Shown here piece by piece: positions 31,502-59,747 of a stretch of DNA of 64,000 nucleotides (the first letter of the stretch is position 1; the number at the start of each line of letters is the position of its first letter). The position numbers were made by a program, and so were the translations under genes. The DNA is from Clostridiaceae bacterium. GTDB taxonomy: Bacteria; Bacillota_I; Bacilli_A; Erysipelotrichales; Coprobacillaceae. The notes under the pieces are model-generated. The model saw only the letters and a list, made by a program, of their open reading frames with translations, made no database searches and was not told where the DNA came from. Location: assembly GCA_902363625.1 (NCBI GenBank), contig CABJAS010000006.1, positions 186,001 to 250,000 of the forward strand. Direction: 5' to 3'.

Positions 31502-31924
31502 ATGGTGCAAATCGGTAAGGAAGTCGGCAATTTATCCAATCATATTAAGCGTACAGTAGATGCGAAAATCACAGCAATCACCAGTGATCTCACAGGATTC
31601 CAGTCAAGAATCCTGCATTTTATTGCTTTTTGCGGTCATGATGTCTATCAGCGTGATGTGGAGGAGGAATTTGAAATACGACGTTCCTCAGTAACGAGTG
31701 TTTTACAGACAATGGAAAGAAACGGACTGATCGAAAGAGTCAGTGTTGAACAGGATGCCCGTTTAAAAAAGATCATCTTAACGACAAAGGCTAAAGATTT
31801 AATGCGCCGCATCGGTGAAGTCATCGATGAGTTTGAAGCTTCATTAATGGAAGATCTATCCATTGAAGAAATAACTGTCTTTATGCAAGTGATCAATAAA
31901 ATGATGACGAAGCTGAATGATTAG
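31502..31924 (+). CDS. MarR-family transcriptional regulator
   Basis: 140 residues, ATG behind AGGAGGTTATAAAG. Winged helix: FQSRILHFIAF, then YQRDVEEEFEIRRSSVTSVL (recognition helix), then NGLIERVSVEQDARLKKIIL (the DxR wing). MarR proteins are dimeric repressors released by small molecules. It is the first gene of an operon with the two ABC exporter half-transporters, 26 bases ahead of the first, so it most likely controls drug efflux through the palindrome over its own promoter. Confidence 0.93.
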   Translation: MVQIGKEVGNLSNHIKRTVDAKITAITSDLTGFQSRILHFIAFCGHDVYQRDVEEEFEIRRSSVTSVLQTMERNGLIERVSVEQDARLKKIILTTKAKDLMRRIGEVIDEFEASLMEDLSIEEITVFMQVINKMMTKLND

Positions 31925-31950
31925 AATGATATTTAAGAAGGGGGTATATG

Positions 31951-33681
31951 ATGTATAAAAAATTAATGGCTTATATAAAAGAATATAAGTTAGCTTCCCT
32001 GCTTGCTCCTATATTTGTTTCATTAGAAGTAGTCATGGAGGTCCTAATCCCAATGATGATGGCACAGATCATCGATGTCGGGTTAGCCAATAACAATATT
32101 CCATATGTATATAAAATTGGAATCATAATGATGGGAATGGCGCTTGTTTCATTATTATTTGGTGCTTTATCAGGGCGCTATGCGGCTGTTGCTTCAGCCG
32201 GAGTAGCCAAAAATTTAAGACAGGCAATTTATCATAAGATACAAGATTTTTCCTTTGCCAACATTGATAAATTTTCCACATCAAGCTTGGTTACACGTTT
32301 AACCACCGATGTGACAAACGTGCAAAATGCTTATCAAGTAATCATCCGTATGCTGGTGCGTGCACCGATCATGCTGGTCTTTGCCTTGTTTATGTCTTTT
32401 CAATTAAATGCACGTTTATCTGTTATCTTTTTATTTGTCATTCCATTTTTAGGAATTGCTTTATATTTCATTATGACACGTGCGCATCCTAACTTTGTTA
32501 AGATGTTTAAAAAATATGACCTTGTAAACCTGGTAGTACAGGAAAACCTGACTAGTATCCGTACTGTAAAGGCATATGTCAGAGAAGATTATGAAAATAA
32601 AAAGTTTAAAAACGCAACCGGAGAATTACAGCAGTATTCTATCAACGCTGAAAAGATTCTGGCGTTTAACTCACCAATCATGCAGCTATCCATGTATTTC
32701 ACAATTATTATGATTTCTTGGTTTGGTGCACAATTTATTATTGGCGGTTCTATGGAAACCGGTCAGTTAATGTCACTGTTTACCTATGTCACACAAATCT
32801 TATCAAGTCTGATGATGATCTCAATGTCCTTTGTGATGGTAACAATGGCTAAATCTTCGGCAGAAAGAATCGTTGAAGTATTGGATGAAGAAAGTGATTT
32901 GACAAATGCTGCATCTCCATTAACTCAGGTTAATGACGGATCGATTGAATTTAAAAACGTCGATTTCAGCTACAGCAAAGATCCAAACAATTTAGCGTTA
33001 AGTCAGATTAATATTAAGATTGAATCCGGTCAGACAGTTGGTATTTTAGGAGGAACCGGTAGTGCCAAGACTTCTTTGGTGCAAATGATTCCAAGACTAT
33101 ATGATGCCACAAACGGTCAGGTTTTAGTCGGTGGTCAGGATGTTCGTGATATCGACATTGAAACATTAAGAGACAATGTTGCGATGGTACTGCAAAAGAA
33201 TGTATTATTTTCCGGTACAATCAAAGAGAACCTGCGATGGGGAGATGCAAACGCGAGTGACGAAGATATTATTCATGCCTGTCAATTAGCACAAGCAGAT
33301 GAATTTATTCAGTCTTTCCCAGATAAGTACGATACAATACTGGATCAAGGCGGAACCAACGTTTCCGGTGGACAAAAACAGCGTTTATGTATAGCTAGGG
33401 CGCTGCTTAAAAAACCTAAGATTTTAATCTTAGATGATTCAACCAGTGCCGTAGATACTAAAACAGATGCATTGATCCGTAAAGCCTTTAAAGAGGAAAT
33501 TCCGAATACCACAAAAATTATTATTGCTCAGCGTGTATCTTCGGTTGAGGATGCCGATATGATCATCGTTTTAGATGATGGAAAAATAAATGGTATCGGA
33601 ACACATGAAGAGCTGCTAAAAACAAATGCAATCTATCAAGAAGTATATGAATCACAAACGAAAGGAGATGATCAGGAATGA
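31951..33681 (+). CDS. Heterodimeric ABC exporter subunit with degenerate ATPase site
   Basis: 576 residues: six membrane helices (residues ~15-300), then a nucleotide-binding domain. Walker A is GGTGSAKTS, signature VSGGQKQR, Walker B LILDDSTSAVD. The catalytic Glu after Walker B is Asp, the mark of the degenerate site of BmrC/LmrC/TM287-type heterodimers. Start: the second of two tandem ATGs (31951) has better spacing from AAGGGGG; 31948 is the alternative. The stop overlaps the start of the partner gene (ATGA). Together with the partner it would export drugs or lipids across the membrane. Confidence 0.92.
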   Translation: MYKKLMAYIKEYKLASLLAPIFVSLEVVMEVLIPMMMAQIIDVGLANNNIPYVYKIGIIMMGMALVSLLFGALSGRYAAVASAGVAKNLRQAIYHKIQDFSFANIDKFSTSSLVTRLTTDVTNVQNAYQVIIRMLVRAPIMLVFALFMSFQLNARLSVIFLFVIPFLGIALYFIMTRAHPNFVKMFKKYDLVNLVVQENLTSIRTVKAYVREDYENKKFKNATGELQQYSINAEKILAFNSPIMQLSMYFTIIMISWFGAQFIIGGSMETGQLMSLFTYVTQILSSLMMISMSFVMVTMAKSSAERIVEVLDEESDLTNAASPLTQVNDGSIEFKNVDFSYSKDPNNLALSQINIKIESGQTVGILGGTGSAKTSLVQMIPRLYDATNGQVLVGGQDVRDIDIETLRDNVAMVLQKNVLFSGTIKENLRWGDANASDEDIIHACQLAQADEFIQSFPDKYDTILDQGGTNVSGGQKQRLCIARALLKKPKILILDDSTSAVDTKTDALIRKAFKEEIPNTTKIIIAQRVSSVEDADMIIVLDDGKINGIGTHEELLKTNAIYQEVYESQTKGDDQE

Positions 33682-39125: not shown

Positions 39126-39437
39126 TTATTTAATTTTTAAATATAATGAATTAATTTTTTTTAAAAATTCTATATCTTTCTCTTCCACAGTACTTAATAC
39201 TACTAAATCAATTGGCAATTCGATTATTGTTTTAAAAAAAGAACGAATAAAGTTTAAATCATTAATTATTTTATCTGAATACTCTGAATAAATAAGCAAC
39301 ATATCAATATCATTTGGATTACTTTTTACATCTAGTATTGATCCAAACAAATAAACATTATCAAAATAATCAAACAACACTATTTGCTGATCAATCACCT
39401 CAAAAATACTAGTTCTTGAATTTATTAATGTATTCAT
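39126..39437 (-). CDS. Minimal nucleotidyltransferase (MNT-like, Pol-beta superfamily)
   Basis: 103 residues. The complete Pol-beta superfamily site is visible: Gly32-Ser33 in VYLFGS, Asp43-x-Asp45 in NDIDMLLIY, and a third carboxylate Asp77 in LPIDLVVLS. The size matches MNT proteins that act as antitoxins by AMPylating or otherwise modifying a partner, best known in MNT-HEPN pairs. Here the partner is an HNH protein: the ATG lies 29 bases inside the end of the HNH gene, with GGAAGA in front. The high A+T and rare-codon look differ from neighbours, suggesting transfer. No ligand or target is evident. Confidence 0.8.
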   Translation of the reverse strand: MNTLINSRTSIFEVIDQQIVLFDYFDNVYLFGSILDVKSNPNDIDMLLIYSEYSDKIINDLNFIRSFFKTIIELPIDLVVLSTVEEKDIEFLKKINSLYLKIK

Positions 39438-40557
39438 AAAAATCTTCCATAGTCAATAAAGTTACATTCATTTTTTCAGAAAGTTTATATGCTTGGTCCG
39501 ATATACAACTTCTCCCATTCCAATTATGTAAATTAACGATAATGCTATTCTCTTCCGGAGATAACTGCATTAATTCAACTTTACTTAAACAATATTCATA
39601 AATAAAAATTACTTTTTCTCCATATACACTAACTTCTCTTAAATTATTATATTTTAGAAATTCATAACTGATGCCATTGAAGTTCATATATTTAAATGCA
39701 TAGTTCAAACTTTTTAACCTAACCTTCGTTTGACTAAAACAATTATAATTAAAGTATAATTGTCTTAATCTAGGGGTATCAGCTAATAGTAATTTAATTA
39801 GTTTCCCATCCTCTTTTAATATAATGTAAGGATCATTAATTCCCATAACTATAGATTTAAATTTGTTCTCTTCATTTAATTTTGTTATTAACATTTCTAA
39901 AGATTCAACAGATGGTAGTATAGAATCCTTAACAGGAGTTATTCCAAACATAGAATTAATTTCTCTTGGGAAAAGAATTTGTCTAATTTTTTCTTCATCA
40001 CTACGAGTAGTTTCAAACTCATCTACATGTTGCATGAAAGAAAAAATATATTCTAAATTTGAATAGGATTCTTCAGGATGCCTTTGAATCAAATAAAGAT
40101 TTTGTTCAAACAATTTTCTCAACTTCCTGTTGTTTGCTAATACTTTAACTTCAAATTTGTCCCATAATTCCCTATTATTGCCTAAATAATAGCTTTCATA
40201 AATAATTTTATTCTCTAAAAGTAAAGGCGCTACCTCCTTTTTTAAATCATCAAAAGATGCAAACTTTTTGCAAAATAATTTATCAACCTCTTCTCTGCGA
40301 ATTTTCTTCCAATTTTTAACTTCTTCAGGACTAAAAGAATAATTTTTATCAAAATCTTTATGACAATTAGGACATAAAACAACTAAGTTTTCAAATGAAT
40401 TATCCGCTGTCTTACAATAAGGAATAATATGAGCTTTTTCAACTATATCTCCGTTACTCATAAACAATTCCCTTTGACAATCAGGGTTCATACATCTTCC
40501 CATAGATTCCGCATACAACCTTCTTTTAACATTCTCGTCTATTTTATCTCTACCCAT
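39409..40557 (-). CDS. HNH endonuclease with a large uncharacterised C-terminal domain
   Basis: 382 residues. Residues 1-~95 are a zinc-containing HNH nuclease: Cys22/Cys27 (CMNPDC), His43 (EKAHIIPY), Asn57 and CPNCH with Cys62, Cys65, His66. The remaining ~285 residues match no domain I recognise; they are rich in Leu, Tyr, Asn and Lys, and end in an alternating strand/helix region (SIIVNLHNWNGRSCISD, then MNVTLLTMEDFYEYI) resembling a Rossmann-like fold. The long second domain with an N-terminal HNH resembles CBASS Cap5 effectors in layout, but I see no SAVED signature. It overlaps a nucleotidyltransferase gene, giving a two-gene unit that could be a toxin-antitoxin or phage-defence module (inference). 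RBS is AAGGGG. Confidence 0.82.
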   Translation of the reverse strand: MGRDKIDENVKRRLYAESMGRCMNPDCQRELFMSNGDIVEKAHIIPYCKTADNSFENLVVLCPNCHKDFDKNYSFSPEEVKNWKKIRREEVDKLFCKKFASFDDLKKEVAPLLLENKIIYESYYLGNNRELWDKFEVKVLANNRKLRKLFEQNLYLIQRHPEESYSNLEYIFSFMQHVDEFETTRSDEEKIRQILFPREINSMFGITPVKDSILPSVESLEMLITKLNEENKFKSIVMGINDPYIILKEDGKLIKLLLADTPRLRQLYFNYNCFSQTKVRLKSLNYAFKYMNFNGISYEFLKYNNLREVSVYGEKVIFIYEYCLSKVELMQLSPEENSIIVNLHNWNGRSCISDQAYKLSEKMNVTLLTMEDFYEYINKFKN

Positions 40558-40593
40558 TATATAGTTCCCCTTTGACTAATGTTTCTTCTGTCA

Positions 40594-40611
40594 CAGTAAT
40601 GTCGATTACTG
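40594..40611. promoter_or_regulatory. Inverted repeat upstream of the HNH gene
   Basis: CAGTAATGTCGATTACTG: perfect 7-bp arms around a 4-base centre, 37 bases before the start codon. A plausible operator for autoregulation of the HNH/nucleotidyltransferase unit. Confidence 0.55.
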
Positions 40612-40900
40612 CAATCTGTTTATCTTGAACTTTTTAACATAATAAATTATCTCACAGAAATTATGATAAACTTACCATATATAAATACGTAAAGTTAGAA
40701 TTATTCCCCTTATAATAACCTAATATTATAATACCATGAAATATTAAAAAAAGAAGATTCAATTATATCTTTAATCTTTTTTATATAACATCATTCAGCT
40801 CCTCGAATTAGTATTCATTTTTCAGATATCAATATGTCGTTAATTCTTTCAATTCATTTATATCCCATTATTTATTTTACAATACTCATGAATGTTTATA
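40612..40900. other. AT-rich non-coding stretch
   Basis: No supported gene. It should hold the promoter of the HNH gene, but no good -35/-10 pair stands out. AAAAAAGAAGATT...AATCTTTTTT at about 40746-40785 is a weak terminator-like inverted repeat. A GAGGAG plus ATG on minus opens only a 7-codon frame, possibly debris of a lost gene. Confidence 0.4.
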
Positions 40901-40940
40901 AAAAAAGAAAGACACTATTTTGCATATAGTCTTCTTTTTT
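40901..40940. terminator. Terminator-like hairpin, both strands
   Basis: AAAAAAGAAAGACACTAT pairs with ATAGTCTTCTTTTTT around TTGC, with small bulges. A-run and T-run flanks let it work in either direction. It lies just past the terminator of the candidate small RNA and may be a backup for it. Confidence 0.55.
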
Positions 40941-40974
40941 GACTTAATATACTAAAGCGGCAATTACCATGAAA

Positions 40975-41001
40975 AGAAAAAAACCTGTATAAACAGGTTT
41001 T
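40975..41001 (-). terminator. Terminator of the candidate DtxR-controlled RNA
   Basis: AAACCTG (40981-40987) with CAGGTTT (40994-41000), loop TATAAA, and a seven-base T-run on the minus strand. Confidence 0.82.
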
Positions 41002-41178
41002 CGTCAAGAATATCGTATTAATGCCTATCATCTACTAGCAAAAATGATAGATCATCAATGTTCATCACTGCACATAATATTATTATAAGCATTCGGAAAA
41101 ATCAAAGGACATGCAGTGAATGAAATAGGAGAATATTTCATGCTTAATTTACTAAGCTTTGGTTAGCCTTAACTAACC
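40976..41178 (-). ncRNA. Candidate metal-repressed small RNA (~200 nt)
   Basis: A promoter with two DtxR-like boxes starts transcription near 41178 and an intrinsic terminator ends it near 40976. Between them the sequence folds into consecutive hairpins. GCTTA/TAAGC lies at 41142-41157. TGAAATA/TATTTCA (41121-41140) has a UUCUCC loop that is complementary to Shine-Dalgarno sequences. CACTGCA/TGCAGTG lies at 41066-41118 and CTATCAT/ATGATAG at 41025-41050. The only frame of note is 28 codons from an ATG at 41141 without an RBS. By analogy with Fur-controlled RyhB and FsrA, it could repress iron- or manganese-using functions when metal is scarce. No homologue is known to me. Confidence 0.62.
41162..41177. 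promoter_or_regulatory. DtxR-like box B of the small-RNA promoter
   Basis: GTTAGCCTTAACTAAC on plus: GTTAG-N6-CTAAC. It lies just downstream of the -10, and its start is exactly 25 bp from box A. Confidence 0.72.
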
Positions 41179-41184
41179 ACCTAT

Positions 41185-41214
41185 ATATTAGCATAAGCTA
41201 ACTTTATTTGTCAA
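41185..41214 (-). promoter_or_regulatory. Promoter of the candidate small RNA
   Basis: Minus strand TTGACA (41209-41214), 18-base spacer, TAATAT (41185-41190). The spacer is filled by DtxR-like box A. Confidence 0.75.
41187..41202. promoter_or_regulatory. DtxR-like box A of the small-RNA promoter
   Basis: ATTAGCATAAGCTAAC on plus (minus GTTAGCTTATGCTAAT), between -35 and -10, so binding would block RNA polymerase. Confidence 0.72.
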
Positions 41215-41257
41215 CTAAAAAATCTATTATTCCTCTGTTGTATTATGATGAATTACA

Positions 41258-41288
41258 GAAAAACCGTTGAACTTCATCATTCAACGGT
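41258..41288 (-). terminator. Terminator of the RNHCP gene
   Basis: ACCGTTGAA/TTCAACGGT (41263-41271 with 41280-41288), followed by TTTTC on minus. Confidence 0.85.
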
Positions 41289-41312
41289 CAATCATTCACT
41301 TAAATACTATTT

Positions 41313-41714
41313 TTAATCTAATTCATCATCATTATAACCATTTAACTTAGCGATTTGTTTTAATCGTTCAATTGGAAAAGGCGGGTTTGTCAAAGGTCTT
41401 AAAGCGATTGACATAATTTTCAAAGGATTATCATCTGCTGCTGTCCGATTAGAATGGATATGTCCACAGCGGCGACAGCGATGAAGAATTGCCCATTCTC
41501 CGTCTTTTCTTACCCAAACCCCGATTGGATCCATTATACCGCCGCATTCTGCTGAGCGATCACCCGGTATATCATCTAAATGAATACTGGATAAACAATT
41601 AGGACAGTGATTTCGATGAAGACTGCCTGCTCCTTCTATTGTCACTTCTTTTCCACATACTTTGCATATAAATGGTTTGATATCTGTATTACTTTTATTA
41701 TTAAATTTCTTCAT
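41313..41714 (-). CDS. RNHCP-domain zinc protein
   Basis: 133 residues, ATG behind AAAGGAGGATAGT. The name-giving motif is seen directly: CKVCGKEV, then SLHRNHCPNCL, then CRRCGHIHSNRTAADDNP. Six or more Cys in CxxC pairs would hold two zincs. Function of RNHCP proteins is unknown; the domain is conserved in many Firmicutes and Actinobacteria. It has a strong promoter and a 137-base structured leader that can alternately free or bury the RBS, so its translation is probably controlled. It is monocistronic and lies in a stretch of metal-related genes. Confidence 0.88.
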   Translation of the reverse strand: MKKFNNKSNTDIKPFICKVCGKEVTIEGAGSLHRNHCPNCLSSIHLDDIPGDRSAECGGIMDPIGVWVRKDGEWAILHRCRRCGHIHSNRTAADDNPLKIMSIALRPLTNPPFPIERLKQIAKLNGYNDDELD

Positions 41715-41851
41715 ACTATCCTCCTTTAGTTAAAACCTAACCTATGGGAGGTATTGCATCAGATTTAGAGTACGCAAACCTCCCGGTCTGCTACAATATC
41801 CTGTGTACTTACATTAAACATCAAGCAATAATTCCTTTCTTATAACGTTAT
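41715..41851 (-). promoter_or_regulatory. Structured 5' leader of the RNHCP gene, possible riboswitch
   Basis: On the minus-strand RNA, GCAGACC-GGGA-GGTTTGC (41774-41791) forms a 7-bp hairpin with a GNRA loop. Alternatively GGGAGGT plus TTGC pairs with GCAA plus ACCTCCC (41746-41784). The same ACCTCC can instead pair with the RBS AAGGAGG near 41723. These are mutually exclusive pairings that could switch translation. It matches no riboswitch class or T-box that I can recognise. Confidence 0.55.
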
Positions 41852-41857
41852 GCATTT

Positions 41858-41886
41858 ATTATAAGCATTCTTATTAAGGAAGTAAA
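41858..41886 (-). promoter_or_regulatory. Promoter of the RNHCP gene
   Basis: Minus strand TTTACT (41881-41886), 17-base spacer, perfect TATAAT (41858-41863). Confidence 0.72.
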
Positions 41887-41901
41887 GCCGTTTATCCATA
41901 T

Positions 41902-41929
41902 AAAAAAATAGTCTTCTAATGAGGACTAT
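41902..41929 (-). terminator. Terminator of the prepilin-like gene
   Basis: ATAGTC/GACTAT stem with extra pairing inside and a seven-base T-run on minus. Confidence 0.8.
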
Positions 41930-41934
41930 TTTCG

Positions 41935-42465
41935 TTAAGTAAAGTTTTCATAATAGTAAATATTCAGATTACTATAATCTTCTTCTGTAATGATCTCTGC
42001 TTTTTGATTTGGAACAACCGCCACATACTTGAATTTATTTCCATCCTTCAACTTGAATCCATAAACTAAGACCGGACATAAGGTTTCTTCCGGTTCACAT
42101 GAACGTCCGTCACTATACCGTTTTTCATATCCCACCGTATAATCCACTAAATTCTCATCTCCTGATAATTGAATTAACTTTTCAGGGGGAATTGCTGTTT
42201 TCAAACTAATACGATGGTTAATCGGTACATCAGGACGAATTGGATCAGTAAGTTTTAGACTATCATCTAATCTGCCTTTTTCAATCTCTATGGTTAATGC
42301 TACATAGTCTGATCTTGCCATAGATATAAACTTCTGATCATTTGCATCTTCAATATATCCGGTTACTACAGGGATCGTTAATGCAGATAATATGGCAATG
42401 ATAACCAATACCACGACTAATTCAATAAGAGTAAACCCTGACTTATCCTTTATTCTTTTTTTCAT
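41935..42465 (-). CDS. Type IV prepilin-like protein
   Basis: 176 residues with a classic class III signal: basic leader MKKRIKDKSG, cleavage before FTLIELVVVLVIIAIL with Glu at +5 of the mature protein. The soluble domain contains one Cys pair (RSCEPEETLC) that may form a disulfide, and looks like a short pilin or pseudopilin. A prepilin peptidase and assembly ATPase would be needed, but none is in the window, so it is an orphan here. The RBS is weak (GGTG). It is monocistronic with its own terminator. Confidence 0.88.
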   Translation of the reverse strand: MKKRIKDKSGFTLIELVVVLVIIAILSALTIPVVTGYIEDANDQKFISMARSDYVALTIEIEKGRLDDSLKLTDPIRPDVPINHRISLKTAIPPEKLIQLSGDENLVDYTVGYEKRYSDGRSCEPEETLCPVLVYGFKLKDGNKFKYVAVVPNQKAEIITEEDYSNLNIYYYENFT

Positions 42466-42554
42466 TTCGCACCAAGCTTTCTATTTTATTTATATTGTAT
42501 AAATCGACATTTTTCTATCTATATTATACACAGATAAAATAAAATATGAAATCT

Positions 42555-42698
42555 TTACTTCTTATGCTGGCATTGTTTTGCTTTACTGCATCCTGAACAG
42601 TCACTGCAGCCATGTCCGCTGCGATGATCTTTTATCATCTTATAAATACATATAGCGACCGCAATAGCCAACAGTGAAGCAACTATAAAGGTTGACAT
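42555..42698 (-). CDS. FeoB-associated Cys-rich membrane protein
   Basis: 47 residues: one membrane helix (FIVASLLAIAVAICIY) then a short tail HGCSDCSGCSKAKQC with four Cys. This is the FeoB_associated family, usually encoded directly after feoB for ferrous iron uptake. Here no feoA or feoB is within reach; instead the DtxR/MntR-family regulator gene is immediately upstream. The RBS is weak (GGGAAGTG). The promoter overlaps a perfect 12-bp palindrome, so metal control is likely. Probable role: handling of ferrous iron at the membrane. Confidence 0.85.
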   Translation of the reverse strand: MSTFIVASLLAIAVAICIYKMIKDHRSGHGCSDCSGCSKAKQCQHKK

Positions 42699-42732
42699 TT
42701 TCTTCACTTCCCTATTTATCTAAGATAAACGA

Positions 42733-42762
42733 ATGGTACCATTGCACAATAAGTCTTGTCAA
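42733..42762 (-). promoter_or_regulatory. Promoter and palindrome of the FeoB-associated gene
   Basis: Minus strand TTGACA (42757-42762), 18-base spacer, TACCAT (42733-42738). The -10 is embedded in the perfect palindrome AATGGTACCATT (42732-42743), which differs from the GTTAG-N6-CTAAC boxes. Confidence 0.6.
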
Positions 42763-42771
42763 TTAAGACGC

Positions 42772-42798
42772 AAAAAAAGAAATGATCCTCTCATTTCT
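42772..42798 (-). terminator. Terminator of the DtxR-family gene
   Basis: AGAAATGA/TCATTTCT (42778-42785 with 42791-42798), then a run of T on minus. It overlaps the stop codon. Confidence 0.85.
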
Positions 42799-43156
42799 CC
42801 TTAAAATGTGCCTTTAAGCAAGCAAAGGTTTTAGGGCTCAAGGTATGTTCGATTTTGCAGGCGTCCATAGCCGCTGTCTCTTCATCTACCCCTAAACGCA
42901 TTAGCATCGCCATTAACAGCTGATGCTTTTCATAGATATCCTCAGCAATCTGACGTCCTTCCTGTGTTAATTCTATCTTTCCATCGATCACATCGACATA
43001 CCCTTGTTCTCTTAATACAGAGACAGCACGACTGACACTTGGCTTAGAAAAATGACGCGCTTTCGCTATATCAATAGCTCGTACACTTCCTTTATTATTT
43101 TTTATAACGAGGATCGTTTCTAAATAATCCTCACCGGATTCATGTATTTCTATCAC
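42791..43156 (-). CDS. DtxR/MntR-family metal-dependent repressor
   Basis: 121 residues from a GTG at 43156 with GGGGGGAAG upstream; an earlier GTG at 43171 overlaps that RBS. It begins IEIHESGEDYLETILVI, the family start, followed by the winged helix (VRAIDIAKARHFSKPSVSRA) and a dimerisation and metal domain (KIEHTLSPKTF with the Glu/His ligands). It lacks the SH3-like domain of DtxR/IdeR, as in MntR. Fe2+ or Mn2+ would activate it as a repressor. Likely targets are the GTTAG-N6-CTAAC boxes at 41162-41202 and 56062-56102 (inference). Confidence 0.9.
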   Translation of the reverse strand: MIEIHESGEDYLETILVIKNNKGSVRAIDIAKARHFSKPSVSRAVSVLREQGYVDVIDGKIELTQEGRQIAEDIYEKHQLLMAMLMRLGVDEETAAMDACKIEHTLSPKTFACLKAHFKEK

Positions 43157-43228
43157 ATATCTTCCCCCCACATCAACTTTAAATATTATAGCATAATTCC
43201 GTAATTTAAAGCGGTTATTATCATATTT

Positions 43229-43258
43229 TTGAAATGAGGTATAGATAATTCCTATAAT
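43229..43258 (+). promoter_or_regulatory. Promoter of the MetE-like gene
   Basis: TTGAAA (43229-43234), 18-base spacer, TATAAT (43253-43258). No S-box or T-box is visible in the ~65-base leader. Confidence 0.65.
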
Positions 43259-43328
43259 CAGTGATATTTAGAATGAATTATATCATAACAAGGAATCATG
43301 CTATGATGGTAAAAAGGGGGAATAAGTG

Positions 43329-44432
43329 ATGGATAAAGCACCATTTAAATATGACATTGTAGGGAGTTTTTTAAGACCGGAGCGTTTGAAAAAGGCTCGT
43401 GAAGATTATTTTAACCATTCGATTACAAAAGAAGAATTGACGGTTATCGAAAATGAGGAAATAAAAAAACTGATTGATAAACAAAAAAGTCTAGGATTAA
43501 AAGCAGTTACCGATGGAGAATTCCGTCGACGTTGGTGGCATTTAGATTTCATACAGGCATTAAACGGCATTAGTGTGTATGATAAAGTCACTACCGGTTT
43601 TCAGGGAAAAGAAATGAAAGTACAGGGAAGCTATATCAGCAGTCCTATTTCTTTTAATGAAAAGCATCCATTTTTAGAACATTTCCGTCTTACTCAGGAA
43701 ATTGCCGGAGATACGCTAGTTAAACAGACGATACCGGGACCTAATATGATTTATTTAGATTCCTTAATTCTTTCACCACAGTATAAAGAAAATCCAGTTT
43801 ATTCAGATTTAGCGGATTTTAGAAAAGATCTTATTGAAACTTATCAGAAAGCTATTTCAGCATTTTATGAGGCAGGATGCCGTTATCTCCAATTAGATGA
43901 TACATCATGGGGTGCGCTTTTTTCTTCTGCTTTTAGAGAAAAAATTGAAGCCTGTGGCTATCAGCCGGATCAGTTAATTAACGAATTTGGGGATATCACG
44001 GAAGCAGCTTTAAGAGTAAAACCAAAGGATATGGTGATCACTTTCCATATCTGTAAAGGAAATTTCCAGTCCTCATGGCTTTATGAAGGATTTTACGATG
44101 TTATTGCCAAACGATTATTTTCTATTGATGCCTTTGATGGTTTTTTCTTGGAGTATGATGATGAACGTTCAGGAGATTTCAGTCCATTAAAATACATTCA
44201 TAATCAAAAAGTAGTATTAGGCTTAATTACTACTAAAACCGCAGATTTAGAAGATAAAGAAGTAATCAAGCAAAGAATTATAGAAGCCAGTCAATATGTT
44301 CCATTAGAACAGCTATGCCTGTCTCCGCAATGCGGTTTTGCTTCTACGCAGGAAGGAAACCATATCACTCAGCAGCAGCAATGGGCTAAACTTGAACATG
44401 TTGTTGCGATTGCAAATGAAGTATTTAAATAA
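43329..44432 (+). CDS. MetE C-terminal-like methyltransferase (YxjG/YxjH type)
   Basis: 367 residues from the ATG at 43329 with GGGGGAATAAG upstream; a GTG one codon earlier is possible. It has the UROD/MetE-like barrel: DIVGSFLRPERLKKAR, LKAVTDGEFRRRWWHLDF, CRYLQLDDTSW, ITFHICKGN (zinc His and Cys) and LSPQCGFAS (zinc Cys). It corresponds to the catalytic half of cobalamin-independent methionine synthase; short paralogues are thought to methylate homocysteine or salvage methyl groups with other donors. Single gene with promoter and terminator. Confidence 0.9.
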   Translation: MDKAPFKYDIVGSFLRPERLKKAREDYFNHSITKEELTVIENEEIKKLIDKQKSLGLKAVTDGEFRRRWWHLDFIQALNGISVYDKVTTGFQGKEMKVQGSYISSPISFNEKHPFLEHFRLTQEIAGDTLVKQTIPGPNMIYLDSLILSPQYKENPVYSDLADFRKDLIETYQKAISAFYEAGCRYLQLDDTSWGALFSSAFREKIEACGYQPDQLINEFGDITEAALRVKPKDMVITFHICKGNFQSSWLYEGFYDVIAKRLFSIDAFDGFFLEYDDERSGDFSPLKYIHNQKVVLGLITTKTADLEDKEVIKQRIIEASQYVPLEQLCLSPQCGFASTQEGNHITQQQQWAKLEHVVAIANEVFK

Positions 44433-56052: not shown

Positions 56053-56079
56053 GACTATAAAGTTAGTTTATGCTAACAT
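56051..56079 (+). promoter_or_regulatory. Promoter of the siderophore transporter operon
   Basis: TTGACT (56051-56056), 17-base spacer, TAACAT (56074-56079), with a DtxR-like box in the spacer. Confidence 0.72.
56062..56077. promoter_or_regulatory. DtxR-like box 1 of the siderophore transporter promoter
   Basis: GTTAGTTTATGCTAAC, perfect GTTAG/CTAAC arms, between -35 and -10. Confidence 0.8.
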
Positions 56080-56086
56080 GCCATTA

Positions 56087-56102
56087 GTTAGCTTAAACTA
56101 AC
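56087..56102. promoter_or_regulatory. DtxR-like box 2 of the siderophore transporter promoter
   Basis: GTTAGCTTAAACTAAC, exactly 25 bp downstream of box 1, over the expected transcription start and leader. Confidence 0.8.
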
Positions 56103-56106
56103 TTAG

Positions 56107-57081
56107 TTGGGAGGAGATATTATTTTATTTCATAAATATTACCGCGGCTTATATCTTATAATGCTTATTGTATTTGCTGTTTATTCTTTAAGCATCGGTG
56201 TGCAGGACTTTAGTTTCACCGCCTTATTCAATGGAGAAAGCAGTCAGCTGACACTTGCGATTATCAGTCGTCTGCCACGTTTAGCGAGCATTTTATTGAC
56301 CGGAGCAATGCTAAGTGTTGCCGGGCTCATCATGCAAAGTATTACCAGTAATAAATTTGTTTCTCCTTCAACTGCGGGAACTATGGAATGGTGCCGTTTT
56401 GGAGTGATGATCGCAATGGTTCTGTTTAGTCAGGCAACTACCGGTCAAAAAGTTTTCATTGCCTTTATTATTGCTTTACTGGGAACAATGCTGTTTATGA
56501 AAATCTTGCAGAAAGTAAAGATCAAAGATACGGTAATGACACCGTTAATTGGGATGATGCTGGGCAGTGTTGTCAGCAGTGTCACTACCTTTGTCGCTTA
56601 TCGATTAGACATTATTCAAAATATGTCATCATGGCTGCAAGGCAGCTTCGCCTTAATATTAAAAGGAAACTATGAACTGCTTTATTTAGGAATCCCTTGT
56701 CTGATTCTGTCGATGATTTATGCCAATCACTTTACGATTGCCGGAATGGGAGACAGTTTTGCCAAGAATCTTGGACTGCGCTATGAACATATCATTTTTA
56801 TTGGTCTGAGTTTAGTCAGCATCATGACTTCGATTGTTGTAGTGAATGTGGGAAGCATTGCATTTATCGGCTTGATTATTCCCAACCTGCTTTCAATGTT
56901 CAAAGGTGATAACGTTAAAAAGAACGTCATCGACTGTGCCCTGTGGGGAGCTGGCTTTGTGCTGATCTGTGACATATTCAGCCGAATGATTATTTTCCCT
57001 TATGAGCTGCCAATCAGTGTTGTCGTCAGTGTTATCGGCAGTATCCTCTTTTTATTCTTGATTAGGAGGAAAAAAAGATGA
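56107..57081 (+). CDS. yclN: Siderophore ABC permease (FecCD family, YclN-like)
   Basis: Up to 324 residues, with eight or more membrane segments and FecCD landmarks (SRLPRLASILLTGAMLSVAG, IMQSITSNKFVSPSTAGT, GSIAFIGLIIPNL). The start is unclear: the TTG at 56107 overlaps the RBS GGAGGAG (56110-56116). The codon at proper spacing is ATT (56122), and the first ATG (56161) would cut into the first helix, so translation may use a rare ATT. First gene of a permease-permease-ATPase-lipoprotein operon in the YclNOPQ order, under two DtxR-like boxes. It imports ferric siderophores. Confidence 0.88.
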   Translation: MGGDIILFHKYYRGLYLIMLIVFAVYSLSIGVQDFSFTALFNGESSQLTLAIISRLPRLASILLTGAMLSVAGLIMQSITSNKFVSPSTAGTMEWCRFGVMIAMVLFSQATTGQKVFIAFIIALLGTMLFMKILQKVKIKDTVMTPLIGMMLGSVVSSVTTFVAYRLDIIQNMSSWLQGSFALILKGNYELLYLGIPCLILSMIYANHFTIAGMGDSFAKNLGLRYEHIIFIGLSLVSIMTSIVVVNVGSIAFIGLIIPNLLSMFKGDNVKKNVIDCALWGAGFVLICDIFSRMIIFPYELPISVVVSVIGSILFLFLIRRKKR

Positions 57082-58046
57082 TGATAAACGCTTTATCCAA
57101 ACAAAAGAAAATCATATTTCTTACTGTTATTTTATTTATAGGAATTTGTCTGCTTTATCTTTTACCCCAATTAAATGCTTCTAACTGGCAATATTTCCTA
57201 ACAAAAAGGGGGACTAAAGTTTTAGCGATTCTTTTAACCGGCTTTTGCATTGGTATTTCATCTTTATCTTTTCAAACGATTACCAATAATAAGCTGATTA
57301 CACCCAATGTTATGGGATTGGAATCTCTTTACATGTTTATCCAAACATTTATTATCTTTATTTGGGGAAGCAAAGAACTATCGATGATGACAAACTACAG
57401 TCAATTCTTCCTATCAATTGGACTGATGATGATCGCTTCGTGGGGATTATTTAATCTTGTCTTTAAAAAAGAAAATCAAGATATTTATCGATTGGTATTA
57501 ACAGGAATGGTCTTAGGCAGTCTCTTTGGCGGATTATCTTCATTTATGCAGGTTCTACTGGATCCAAATGAGTTTACTATCCTGCAAGGAAAAATGTTTG
57601 CCTCATTTAATAATGTAAATGTTTCTTTGCTTGGCATCAGCTGTCTGCTGATCCTGCCTTGTGCCTATATTTTACTTAAAGACCGCCATGCCTTGAATGT
57701 ATTATCATTAGGCAGAAGCTCTTCTATTAATTTAGGTGTCAATTACTATCGTTTAGTCAAAAGACAGCTGATGATGAGTGCTGTACTGATTTCAATTTCT
57801 ACGGCATTAGTAGGCCCCATTACCTTTTTAGGTATCTTAGTTGTTTCTTTGACTAGAAAGCTACTAAATACTTATCGTCATCAGGAAATGATGATTGAAG
57901 TGACAATACTTAGCGGTACATTCTTATTAGCTGCCACTTATTTGGTCGAACGTGTGTTTTCATTTAATACGACTGTCAGTGTCATTATTAATTTTATCGG
58001 CGGAGTATATTTTATCTATTTAATTATAAAGGAGCGTCAAAAATGA
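57078..58046 (+). CDS. yclO: Siderophore ABC permease (FecCD family, YclO-like)
   Basis: 322 residues, about nine membrane segments. Tandem ATGs (57078 and 57081) follow AGGAGGAAAAAAAG, and the first overlaps the preceding stop. Family patterns: KRGTKVLAILLTGFCIGISS, FQTITNNKLITPNVMGLESL and LVGPITFLGILVVSL. Second subunit of the permease pair. Overlaps at both ends indicate tight translational coupling. Confidence 0.9.
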   Translation: MMINALSKQKKIIFLTVILFIGICLLYLLPQLNASNWQYFLTKRGTKVLAILLTGFCIGISSLSFQTITNNKLITPNVMGLESLYMFIQTFIIFIWGSKELSMMTNYSQFFLSIGLMMIASWGLFNLVFKKENQDIYRLVLTGMVLGSLFGGLSSFMQVLLDPNEFTILQGKMFASFNNVNVSLLGISCLLILPCAYILLKDRHALNVLSLGRSSSINLGVNYYRLVKRQLMMSAVLISISTALVGPITFLGILVVSLTRKLLNTYRHQEMMIEVTILSGTFLLAATYLVERVFSFNTTVSVIINFIGGVYFIYLIIKERQK

Positions 58047-58801
58047 TAGAAGTTAAACAAGTGACTAAAACCTATGATCAATTCCCTGTACTTAATGAAA
58101 TTGATGTTTGTCTGCCAGAAGAAAAGATCATTGCCTTTATTGGCAGCAATGGAACCGGAAAATCTACACTTCTCTCAATTATCGGGAGAACATTAGAGAA
58201 AAATGGCGGTCACGTCTATATTGATGAGATCGAGCTATCCTTATGGAAAAGTCAGGAATTGGCAAAACACCTTTCAATCCTTCAGCAAGCACAGCAGTCG
58301 ATTATCCGTTTAACTGTTGAGGAATTAGTAGGATTTGGACGTTTTCCTCACAGTCAGGGAAGATTAAGTCAAGAAGATCGTCAGCATATTGATAAAGCTA
58401 TCGCCTATTTAGAGCTTGATCATTTAAGAACACGCTACTTAGATGAGCTAAGCGGCGGACAAAGACAGCTTGCTTATATTGCTATGGTATTAGCACAGGA
58501 TAGTCATTACATTTTCTTAGACGAACCCCTTAACAATTTAGATATGAAACATGCGACACAGATCATGAAAGTCTTGCGCAAATTAGTTGACGAACTGCAT
58601 AAAACCGTTTTAGTCGTCATTCACGATATTAATTTTGTTTCTTACTACAGCGATCACATCATTGCCTTAAAAAAAGGAAAGATCATCGCTCAGGGAAGTA
58701 CGGATGAAATTATTCGTCCGGAAGTATTAAAAGAGATTTATGATATAGAAATGACCATCAAAGAGATTGATGGCAAAAGATTTTGTTTATATTTTGAATA
58801 G
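58043..58801 (+). CDS. yclP: Siderophore ABC ATPase (YclP-like)
   Basis: 252 residues. Walker A is GSNGTGKST, Q-loop LSILQQ, signature LSGGQRQLA, Walker B IFLDEPLNNLD, H-loop VVIHDINF. It is typical of FepC/FecE-type ATPases. The start overlaps the preceding permease gene; RBS is AAGGAG. Confidence 0.93.
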   Translation: MIEVKQVTKTYDQFPVLNEIDVCLPEEKIIAFIGSNGTGKSTLLSIIGRTLEKNGGHVYIDEIELSLWKSQELAKHLSILQQAQQSIIRLTVEELVGFGRFPHSQGRLSQEDRQHIDKAIAYLELDHLRTRYLDELSGGQRQLAYIAMVLAQDSHYIFLDEPLNNLDMKHATQIMKVLRKLVDELHKTVLVVIHDINFVSYYSDHIIALKKGKIIAQGSTDEIIRPEVLKEIYDIEMTIKEIDGKRFCLYFE

Positions 58802-58811
58802 GAGCCTAACA

Positions 58812-59747
58812 ATGAAAAAACATATAAAAAAAATATTAACGTGTACCCTTGCTTTATTGATGGCATTCGTATTAGCAGGATGTCAAAGCAGCCCTGAAAA
58901 AACACCGTCAGAACAAAGCATGACCATTGAACACCTTAAAGGAACAGCTGTAATCAATGGAGAAGTAAATAAAGCAGCAGTCTTTGATTTTGGTTTCTTA
59001 GACACCATGAAAGTGATGGGAATCGACACCGAATTGGCATTGCCAATAAGCAGTCTGCCGAATTATTTATCTGAATATAAGAACGCAGTAAATGCAGGGG
59101 GTATCAAGGAACCGGATTTAGAAGCCTTATATACATTTCAGCCGGATGTCATTGTTATTTCCGGCAGACAAAGTGATTATTATGATGAATTAAGCAAGAT
59201 TGCTCCTACTGTTTATGTTGAAGTAAATGCAGAGACATATTTAGAGGACGTTAAAAAGAATACTGAAATTGCCGCAAAAATCTTTAATGCTGAAGATGCT
59301 GCAAATAAAGCGATCCAAGATTTAGAAGCACAGGTTGAAGAAGCGAAAACAACAGTCGGTTCAACCGATCAAAAGGCTTTAATCCTTCTGACAAACGATG
59401 GAAATATTTCAGCCTATGGAGCCGGATCTCGTTTTGGTTTAATTCATGACCTTTTAGGAATTCCAACAGCGGATTCAACAATCACTGTGTCTACTCATGG
59501 ACAAAGTGTCAACTATGAATATATCGCTAAAATCAATCCGGATATTCTTTACGTTGTCGACCGTACACAAATCGTAGGGGGAACCACAACAACAAACACA
59601 ACCTTGGATAATGATCTGGTTAAACAAACAAAGGCTTATCAAAACCAGCAGATCATTAGCTTAACCCCGGATTACTGGTACTTATCAAGCGGTGGCTTAC
59701 TATCAGTTTCTGAAATGATTAAAGAAGCGACTGCCCCCTTTAAATAA
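58812..59747 (+). CDS. yclQ: Siderophore-binding lipoprotein (YclQ/CeuE-like)
   Basis: 311 residues from the ATG at 58812 with AGGAG upstream. A signal peptide ends in the lipobox LAGC (Cys24), so it is a membrane-anchored lipoprotein. It has a periplasmic-binding-protein type III fold: KAAVFDFGFLDTMKVMG, FQPDVIVISGRQSDYYDELS, and the CeuE/YclQ signature STHGQSVNYEYIAKINPDIL followed by VVDRTQIVGG. YclQ and CeuE bind catecholate siderophores or their fragments; the ligand here is inferred. Last gene of the operon. Confidence 0.92.
   Translation: MKKHIKKILTCTLALLMAFVLAGCQSSPEKTPSEQSMTIEHLKGTAVINGEVNKAAVFDFGFLDTMKVMGIDTELALPISSLPNYLSEYKNAVNAGGIKEPDLEALYTFQPDVIVISGRQSDYYDELSKIAPTVYVEVNAETYLEDVKKNTEIAAKIFNAEDAANKAIQDLEAQVEEAKTTVGSTDQKALILLTNDGNISAYGAGSRFGLIHDLLGIPTADSTITVSTHGQSVNYEYIAKINPDILYVVDRTQIVGGTTTTNTTLDNDLVKQTKAYQNQQIISLTPDYWYLSSGGLLSVSEMIKEATAPFK

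Follow-up and report, generated by a model that had tools for sequence, protein, structure and literature searches.

A predicted small RNA behind tandem, probably DtxR-type operators in a gut bacterium of the order Erysipelotrichales

Positions 41214-40974 on the minus strand of the window (the whole stretch of 64,000 nucleotides (nt) analysed here, from contig CABJAS010000006.1 of an Erysipelotrichales bacterium) would constitute a stand-alone gene for a small RNA (sRNA) of about 205 nt. On balance we consider this RNA likely to be a trans-acting, iron-sparing sRNA that pairs with Shine-Dalgarno (SD) sequences and is repressed by a DtxR-family protein. The case is built by comparison, from the conservation and structure of the RNA, the regulon marked by its operator and the nearness of that operator to dtxR genes. 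A preliminary description of this DNA had proposed a DtxR-controlled sRNA at this place, and most of its elements were recovered as described: a minus-strand promoter TTGACA-N18-TAATAT, about 200 nt holding no convincing gene, four consecutive inverted repeats, which appear as four hairpins between the operator hairpin and the terminator in the predicted fold, the motif UUCUCC in the loop of one of them, and an intrinsic terminator with its T-tract at the end of the unit (Table 1). Both of the GTTAG-N6-CTAAC boxes that it reported were located; box 2 is exact and box 1 has one mismatch.

A counterpart of the RNA was found in Beduini massiliensis (strain GM1, family Erysipelotrichaceae; our handle G001). 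In the two longest flanking alignments (13.2 and 9.9 kb) the window and this genome share about 86% identity, and the RNHCP-domain protein encoded beside the RNA is 92% identical to its GM1 counterpart; the body of the RNA (40974-41160) is identical at 182 of 187 positions. Among 1381 overlapping flank segments of 187 columns (mean identity 0.852; five aligned stretches of at least 900 bases), three were as conserved, and all three represent one place, 31883-32129, an ABC-transporter gene by eye. Both promoter hexamers are unchanged, the spacer having two differences, and hairpin 3 and the loop of hairpin 4 are identical in the two species. Two of the five differences in the RNA fall on unpaired bases; the other three, including two in hairpin 5, alter one side of a pair, and pairing is preserved in every case. 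Loss of the hairpins in homologues, which the preliminary description had named as a reason to abandon its proposal, was thus not seen: all 53 pairs form in both Beduini RNAs, and the two fold alike. The predicted folding energy was -57.9 kcal/mol, as compared to -36.1 +/- 3.95 for shuffled sequences (z -5.51; 0 of 200 shuffles as good), with the operator hairpin followed by the four consecutive hairpins and the terminator. A scan of the window with Rfam 15 gave no family at gathering score. That this is a real conserved RNA appears to us close to certain.

Table 1. Positions of the main features in the window.
Feature	Position	Strand	Remarks
Predicted non-coding RNA, about 205 nt	41178-40974	minus	start at about 41178 inferred from the -10
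Promoter TTGACA-N18-TAATAT	41214-41185	minus	TG preceding the -10; 10/12 match
Box 1, GTTAGCTTATGCTAAT	41202-41187	minus	overlaps spacer and -10; one mismatch to GTTAG-N6-CTAAC (ends CTAAT)
Box 2, GTTAGTTAAGGCTAAC	41177-41162	minus	exact; adjoins the predicted start; doubles as first RNA hairpin
Hairpin 2	41157-41142	minus	5 bp, 6-nt loop
Hairpin 3	41141-41120	minus	8-bp stem; loop UUCUCC (41133-41128), candidate anti-SD seed
Hairpin 4	41119-41065	minus	11-bp stem; 33-nt loop with CCUUUGAUUUUUCC, candidate second pairing region
Hairpin 5	41059-41017	minus	17 bp, one bulge; z -4.31
Intrinsic terminator and T-tract	41002-40974	minus	terminator 41002-40979
Open reading frame, 28 amino acids	41141-41055	minus	longest wholly within the RNA; no SD; judged non-coding
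DtxR-family repressor gene, 126 amino acids	43171-42791	minus	candidate regulator; PF01325 and PF02742 above cut-off
FeoB-associated Cys-rich membrane protein gene	42707-42555	minus	beside dtxR; PF12669
Second tandem box pair	56062-56102	plus	upstream of siderophore-type ABC operon
Siderophore-type operon	56107-59747	plus	FecCD permease first, then permease, ATPase, substrate-binding protein

The RNA unit sits between rpiR-type and RNHCP genes in both species. The intervening DNA differs: in the window it parts the unit from rpiR, in B. massiliensis from the RNHCP gene. This indicates that the RNA was kept while its neighbours changed. In the window, HNH-type and nucleotidyltransferase-like genes (39126-40557, minus) separate the RNA from rpiR; B. 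massiliensis lacks them at this position. This arrangement bears on the alternative that the RNA and its terminator form a cis-acting leader, attenuating the downstream gene with no action in trans. Such a role could be read from B. massiliensis, where the rpiR-type gene starts 215-225 nt past the boxes, shortly after the terminator, and from the leaders of 73-93 nt carried by the boxed enolase genes of other genomes (see below). In the window, however, rpiR starts about 1.9 kb away and the next minus-strand gene of more than 60 amino acids (aa) is the HNH-type one, with its start at 40557, more than 400 nt past the terminator; yet the RNA is conserved despite the changed neighbour. We hold a leader to be quite unlikely. 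Judged from these sequences, the unit has the properties of a conserved structured RNA with a terminator of its own rather than those of a leader, in agreement with the stand-alone unit originally proposed.

The RNA might also be a small mRNA, the 28-aa frame (MKYSPISFTACPLIFPNAYNNIMCSDEH) being translated either alone or within a dual-function RNA. This frame is retained in B. massiliensis with no insertion or deletion; a second frame, of 38 aa (41031-40915, minus), extends beyond the terminator. The 28-aa frame nevertheless lacks an SD sequence, its AUG is buried in hairpin 3, and B. massiliensis differs in it by one nonsynonymous change (D to G) and by no synonymous one, so that the synonymous-site bias expected of a gene, and named in the preliminary description as evidence for one, is not found. 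Near-identity, moreover, covers the remaining RNA as well. Translation of the frame seems very unlikely.

The search for the RNA beyond Beduini was made with blastn and with a model, R1, both with first-look filters able to lose weak matches. Ten genomes among 98 relatives were matched by blastn: besides G001, seven on the promoter and box region, one on a terminator and one (G059, where boxes were not sought) over 46 nt elsewhere in the RNA. In four genomes the blastn matches covering the promoter lead to feoA, in three to an NrdI-like flavodoxin, one of them shortened. With R1, G001 was the sole strong match (5e-58) in 43 family genomes and in 315 order genomes. Matches at E up to 1 came from eight of the 43, and the weaker ones carry no boxes where examined (L095-L099; L100-L102 left out); four other matches in the order (E 0.003-0.08; L178-L180, L094) were rejected as homologues, their loci being without a box. 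The search of relatives suggested at the outset recovered the RNA in B. massiliensis and returned no further strong match. Plasmid and phage searches for the RNA gave none. An 18-nt loop pattern present in three viral contigs (R1 E 0.02-0.16, over 18-22 nt only) was taken as chance.

The tandem boxes provided a second line of evidence. Exact boxes occur three times in the window against 0.03 expected, and tandem boxes give three rows, at two places, against 0.00 expected (100 window shuffles); boxes with up to two mismatches, 28 against 19.8 expected, are not significant, as 7 of 100 shuffles reach 28. The operator signal is the pair of boxes plus its position, not the single box. The second place in the window lies upstream of the siderophore-type operon, whose first and last genes were assigned with Pfam (PF01032 and PF01497) and whose middle two were named by eye. 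Across the order, 56 of the 148 genomes drawn had tandem boxes regardless of a -35, as opposed to 1 of 148 with the reversed pattern, and 51 of 315 had tandem boxes with a correctly placed -35 (control, 0 of 315); in the relatives, the distance from the start of the -35 to the downstream box 1 is 11 or 12 nt. Fifty-eight rows corresponded to 56 distinct sites, two (G015 + and G146 +) being dropped as the opposite strand of other rows. First genes were named by eye, and Pfam agreed on each representative tested; the FecCD site of G001, the FeoA-FeoB site of G229 and the ABC site of G315 were counted as genes. The first item behind the boxes is FeoA or FeoA-FeoB at 20 sites, an NrdI-type flavodoxin at 11, enolase at 5, an ABC transporter at 4, and DUF3793, a siderophore-type binding protein and FecCD at one each; the remaining 13 are non-coding. 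Judged by this predicted gene content, the tandem-box operator marks an iron-starvation regulon. Since the double operator of the window RNA is the same as that on iron-uptake genes, the RNA is probably made when iron is short.

Two further observations concern the boxes. Enolase, an unexpected glycolytic member of the regulon, stands behind the tandem-box promoter with its 73-93 nt leader at further loci besides the five sites counted (L119, L121, L122, L132-L134, L138, L167, L174-L176; Pfam on L121 and L138). In B. massiliensis, a single exact box lies 18 nt before an iron-sulfur gene of the NifH/frxC family (PF00142; L105 1501-2278, G001 C4:192728).

Genes for possible regulators were surveyed in 64 genomes, namely 32 of the 56 tandem-box genomes and 32 genomes without tandem boxes. 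Within the 32 box genomes, 9 of 51 PF02742 (DtxR-family) matches, in nine genomes, lay no more than 3 kb from a tandem box, as opposed to 0 of 46 PF01475 (FUR-family) matches (3 of the 51 and 6 of the 46 being below the Pfam cut-off). FUR-family matches were present in 28 of 32 genomes of either kind, in assemblies that may be incomplete. Two PF02742 matches are found in B. massiliensis, the second of them at C3:29385, and viral contigs searched for DtxR gave nothing. The nearness to dtxR rather than fur genes favours a DtxR-family repressor on these sequences, and DtxR-type metal control of the window RNA is, in our judgement, very probable. The DtxR control put forward in the preliminary description is thus partly supported, in so far as the operator stands, in relatives, on feoA/feoB, flavodoxin and siderophore-type genes, and near dtxR, not fur. 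At one locus (L127, G010 C41:16838) a tandem box lies about 0.1 kb from the dtxR start, suggesting possible autoregulation.

The 13 non-coding sites, in 13 genomes, have no close gene, and a script found a terminator after about 170-250 nt at each; the window RNA is a fourteenth case. They were placed in five groups: A (G001), B (G085, G140, G071, G190), C (G146, G162, G201), D (G264, G265, G267, plus G049, joined through a shared long-loop hairpin with many gaps elsewhere) and E (G157). The loci of the 12 genomes other than G001 are L141, L144, L145, L205; L143, L201, L206; L163, L216-L218; and L199; an Rfam scan of five of these left the RNAs without a match. All 13 boxed RNAs, as well as the window RNA, have at least one CUCC whose mean unpaired probability is 0.83 or higher. 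All 4 sequences of group B carry the loop UGUCCUCCUCAA unchanged, and 4 of 7 stem pairs show two-sided change, one of them being also broken in one sequence. The three group C sequences, two of them almost identical, agree in both CUCC stretches; the enclosing stem has two-sided change at 4 of 14 pairs, and 3 pairs are broken in one sequence. Perfect anti-SD 5-mers show a weak excess over shuffles in each RNA, with P 0.02-0.06 for G049 and the members of group B. R1 run without filters finds none of groups B-E significantly and so gives no support for their homology with the window RNA. As a tentative generalization, to which we give somewhat less than an even chance, Erysipelotrichales may possess a layer of DtxR-switched sRNAs that share one operator design, comprise at least five groups (A-E) and each expose anti-SD loops.

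Two observations concern the surroundings of these RNAs. At L141 (1784-1872) a TPP riboswitch comes directly after the group B RNA, and at L144 (2133-2221) one also follows it. In G157 (L199 1501-2412) two tandem-box promoters stand 290 nt apart, with a candidate RNA behind the one and then a DUF3793 gene (PF12672).

We propose that a metal-loaded DtxR-family repressor would sit on the two operators of the window RNA. As these overlap the -10 and the beginning of the transcript, the RNA would appear only under scarcity of iron (or, less likely, of manganese), and would be co-induced with the siderophore-type transporter at 56107. Its single-stranded pyrimidines, those of the hairpin 3 loop (UUCUCC) and perhaps those of hairpin 4 (CCUUU...UUUUUCC), would pair with SD regions, and this pairing would block translation of the mRNAs of iron-using proteins. 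We infer here transcription, which DtxR binds, the metal, the SD pairing and the targets. The five bases from CUCC on have a mean unpaired probability of 0.83 in the window RNA. A metal-regulated RNA could instead work otherwise, for instance as a sponge or through protein binding, the UUCUCC loop being incidental. A weak match to rsmX (29.7 bits, E 0.038) and the single CUCC of the window RNA, which is compatible with chance, would fit this explanation; the rsmX match, however, is far under the curated score (cut-off 56), and CUCC is exposed in every one of the 13 other boxed RNAs, with the loops held invariant in two groups. We find a function of this other kind rather unlikely.

Candidate targets of the putatively SD-pairing RNA were sought in G001. 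Sixty-five rows had AGGAGAAT before ATG (10 in the reversed-pattern control), and the scoring covered 49 distinct starts whose frame was at least 25 aa long. The best iron-protein candidate was one rubrerythrin, at -30.0 kcal/mol with the whole of hairpin 4 and -19.6 kcal/mol with its loop. A hydrogenase-like (by eye) ATG scored -35.3, below all 384 background genes, and was set aside, being read as an internal ATG in a longer frame and not a start. Thus, the target prediction recommended in the preliminary description singled out no target.

A number of results weigh against an SD-pairing sRNA under DtxR control. As to conservation, the RNA is seen in the window and in only 1 of 315 order genomes, and it shows no two-sided covariation because just two sequences, both from Beduini, are to hand. 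The promoter alone is at chance level (15 promoter-like sites in a scan of 40500-43400, as compared to 16.4 in shuffles), and exact single boxes are not enriched in G001 (23 rows versus 30 in the reversed control). Regarding the regulator, PF02742 is present in 32 of 32 box genomes and in 29 of 32 boxless ones, so that dtxR presence alone does not discriminate; seven of the nine dtxR-linked genomes (G028, G032, G036, G039, G041, G042, G043) apparently represent one arrangement beside flavodoxin, so that independent linkage events are fewer than nine, and the odds for DtxR are slightly lowered for this reason. The window RNA holds one anti-SD 5-mer where 0.15 is expected by chance (P 0.13), which is not significant alone, and the excess is likewise weak (P 0.11-0.33) in 8 of the 13 other boxed RNAs. 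As R1 recovers none of these others significantly, the boxed RNAs may be analogues. Finally, the best rubrerythrin ranks only in the top 1.8% (whole hairpin 4) and 2.3% (loop) of the 384 background genes, drawn from a 400-kb portion of G001, and no notable rank was reached by the remaining full-length rubrerythrin starts that were scored.

Apart from this locus, the window contains an open frame of 6950 aa (2945-23797, minus) that looks by eye like a giant repetitive surface protein.

The kind of sRNA proposed has precedents. In Mycobacterium tuberculosis, MrsI (ncRv11846) is an iron-starvation sRNA with a site for IdeR, a DtxR-family protein, in its promoter (PMC8628891); it represses iron proteins (PMC8628891, PMC9410917), its control by IdeR being predicted (PMC9410917). 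The window RNA would resemble it in carrying a probable DtxR-family site in an sRNA's own promoter and in a probable link to iron starvation (PMC8628891, PMC9410917). MrsI differs in being about 100 nt long, with a six-nt seed, and actinobacterial; the two are likened by description. RsaC of Staphylococcus aureus is repressed by MntR, another DtxR-family protein, and in a table of that review no sRNA is given as reported for DtxR itself (PMC9294342); unlike RsaC, as described there, the window RNA has its own promoter and an operator marking iron genes. Given MrsI (IdeR, predicted) and RsaC (MntR), the kind of sRNA is known and its control by a DtxR-family protein precedented, and the suggestion in the preliminary description that a metal-sparing RNA under such a repressor would be a separate invention was overstated. 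FsrA of Bacillus subtilis and IsrR of S. aureus are iron-sparing sRNAs of Firmicutes under Fur (PMC9410917). The pyrimidine loops of the window RNA recall the C-rich single-stranded regions of IsrR and the C-rich motif by which FsrA binds the SD sequence (PMC9410917). These two differ in being Fur-controlled, and the window has no Rfam match at gathering score (whether Rfam includes models of FsrA and IsrR was not checked). RyhB and PrrF are, similarly, trans-acting sRNAs repressed by an iron regulator (PMC9294342, PMC9410917); as described, they are Fur-controlled and Hfq-dependent (PMC9410917), and here too the window gave no match in Rfam. Among the matches listed for open-licence papers, none described such an RNA for this gut-bacterial group, and no open-licence paper was found on a DtxR iron regulon in an Erysipelotrich. 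Both the RNA family and the group of bacteria hosting it seem to be new.

If the proposal is right, the window RNA would be an RNA like FsrA and IsrR placed under DtxR-type operators, whereas FsrA and IsrR, as described, are under Fur. Tandem boxes with no gene behind them offer a way of finding more such RNAs. If the wider, more tentative suggestion of a DtxR-switched layer also holds, iron-sparing RNAs would have arisen, or diverged past recognition, repeatedly at the same tandem-box promoter, and with several unrelated-looking boxed RNAs in one order, the origin of iron-sparing RNAs would be open to direct comparison.
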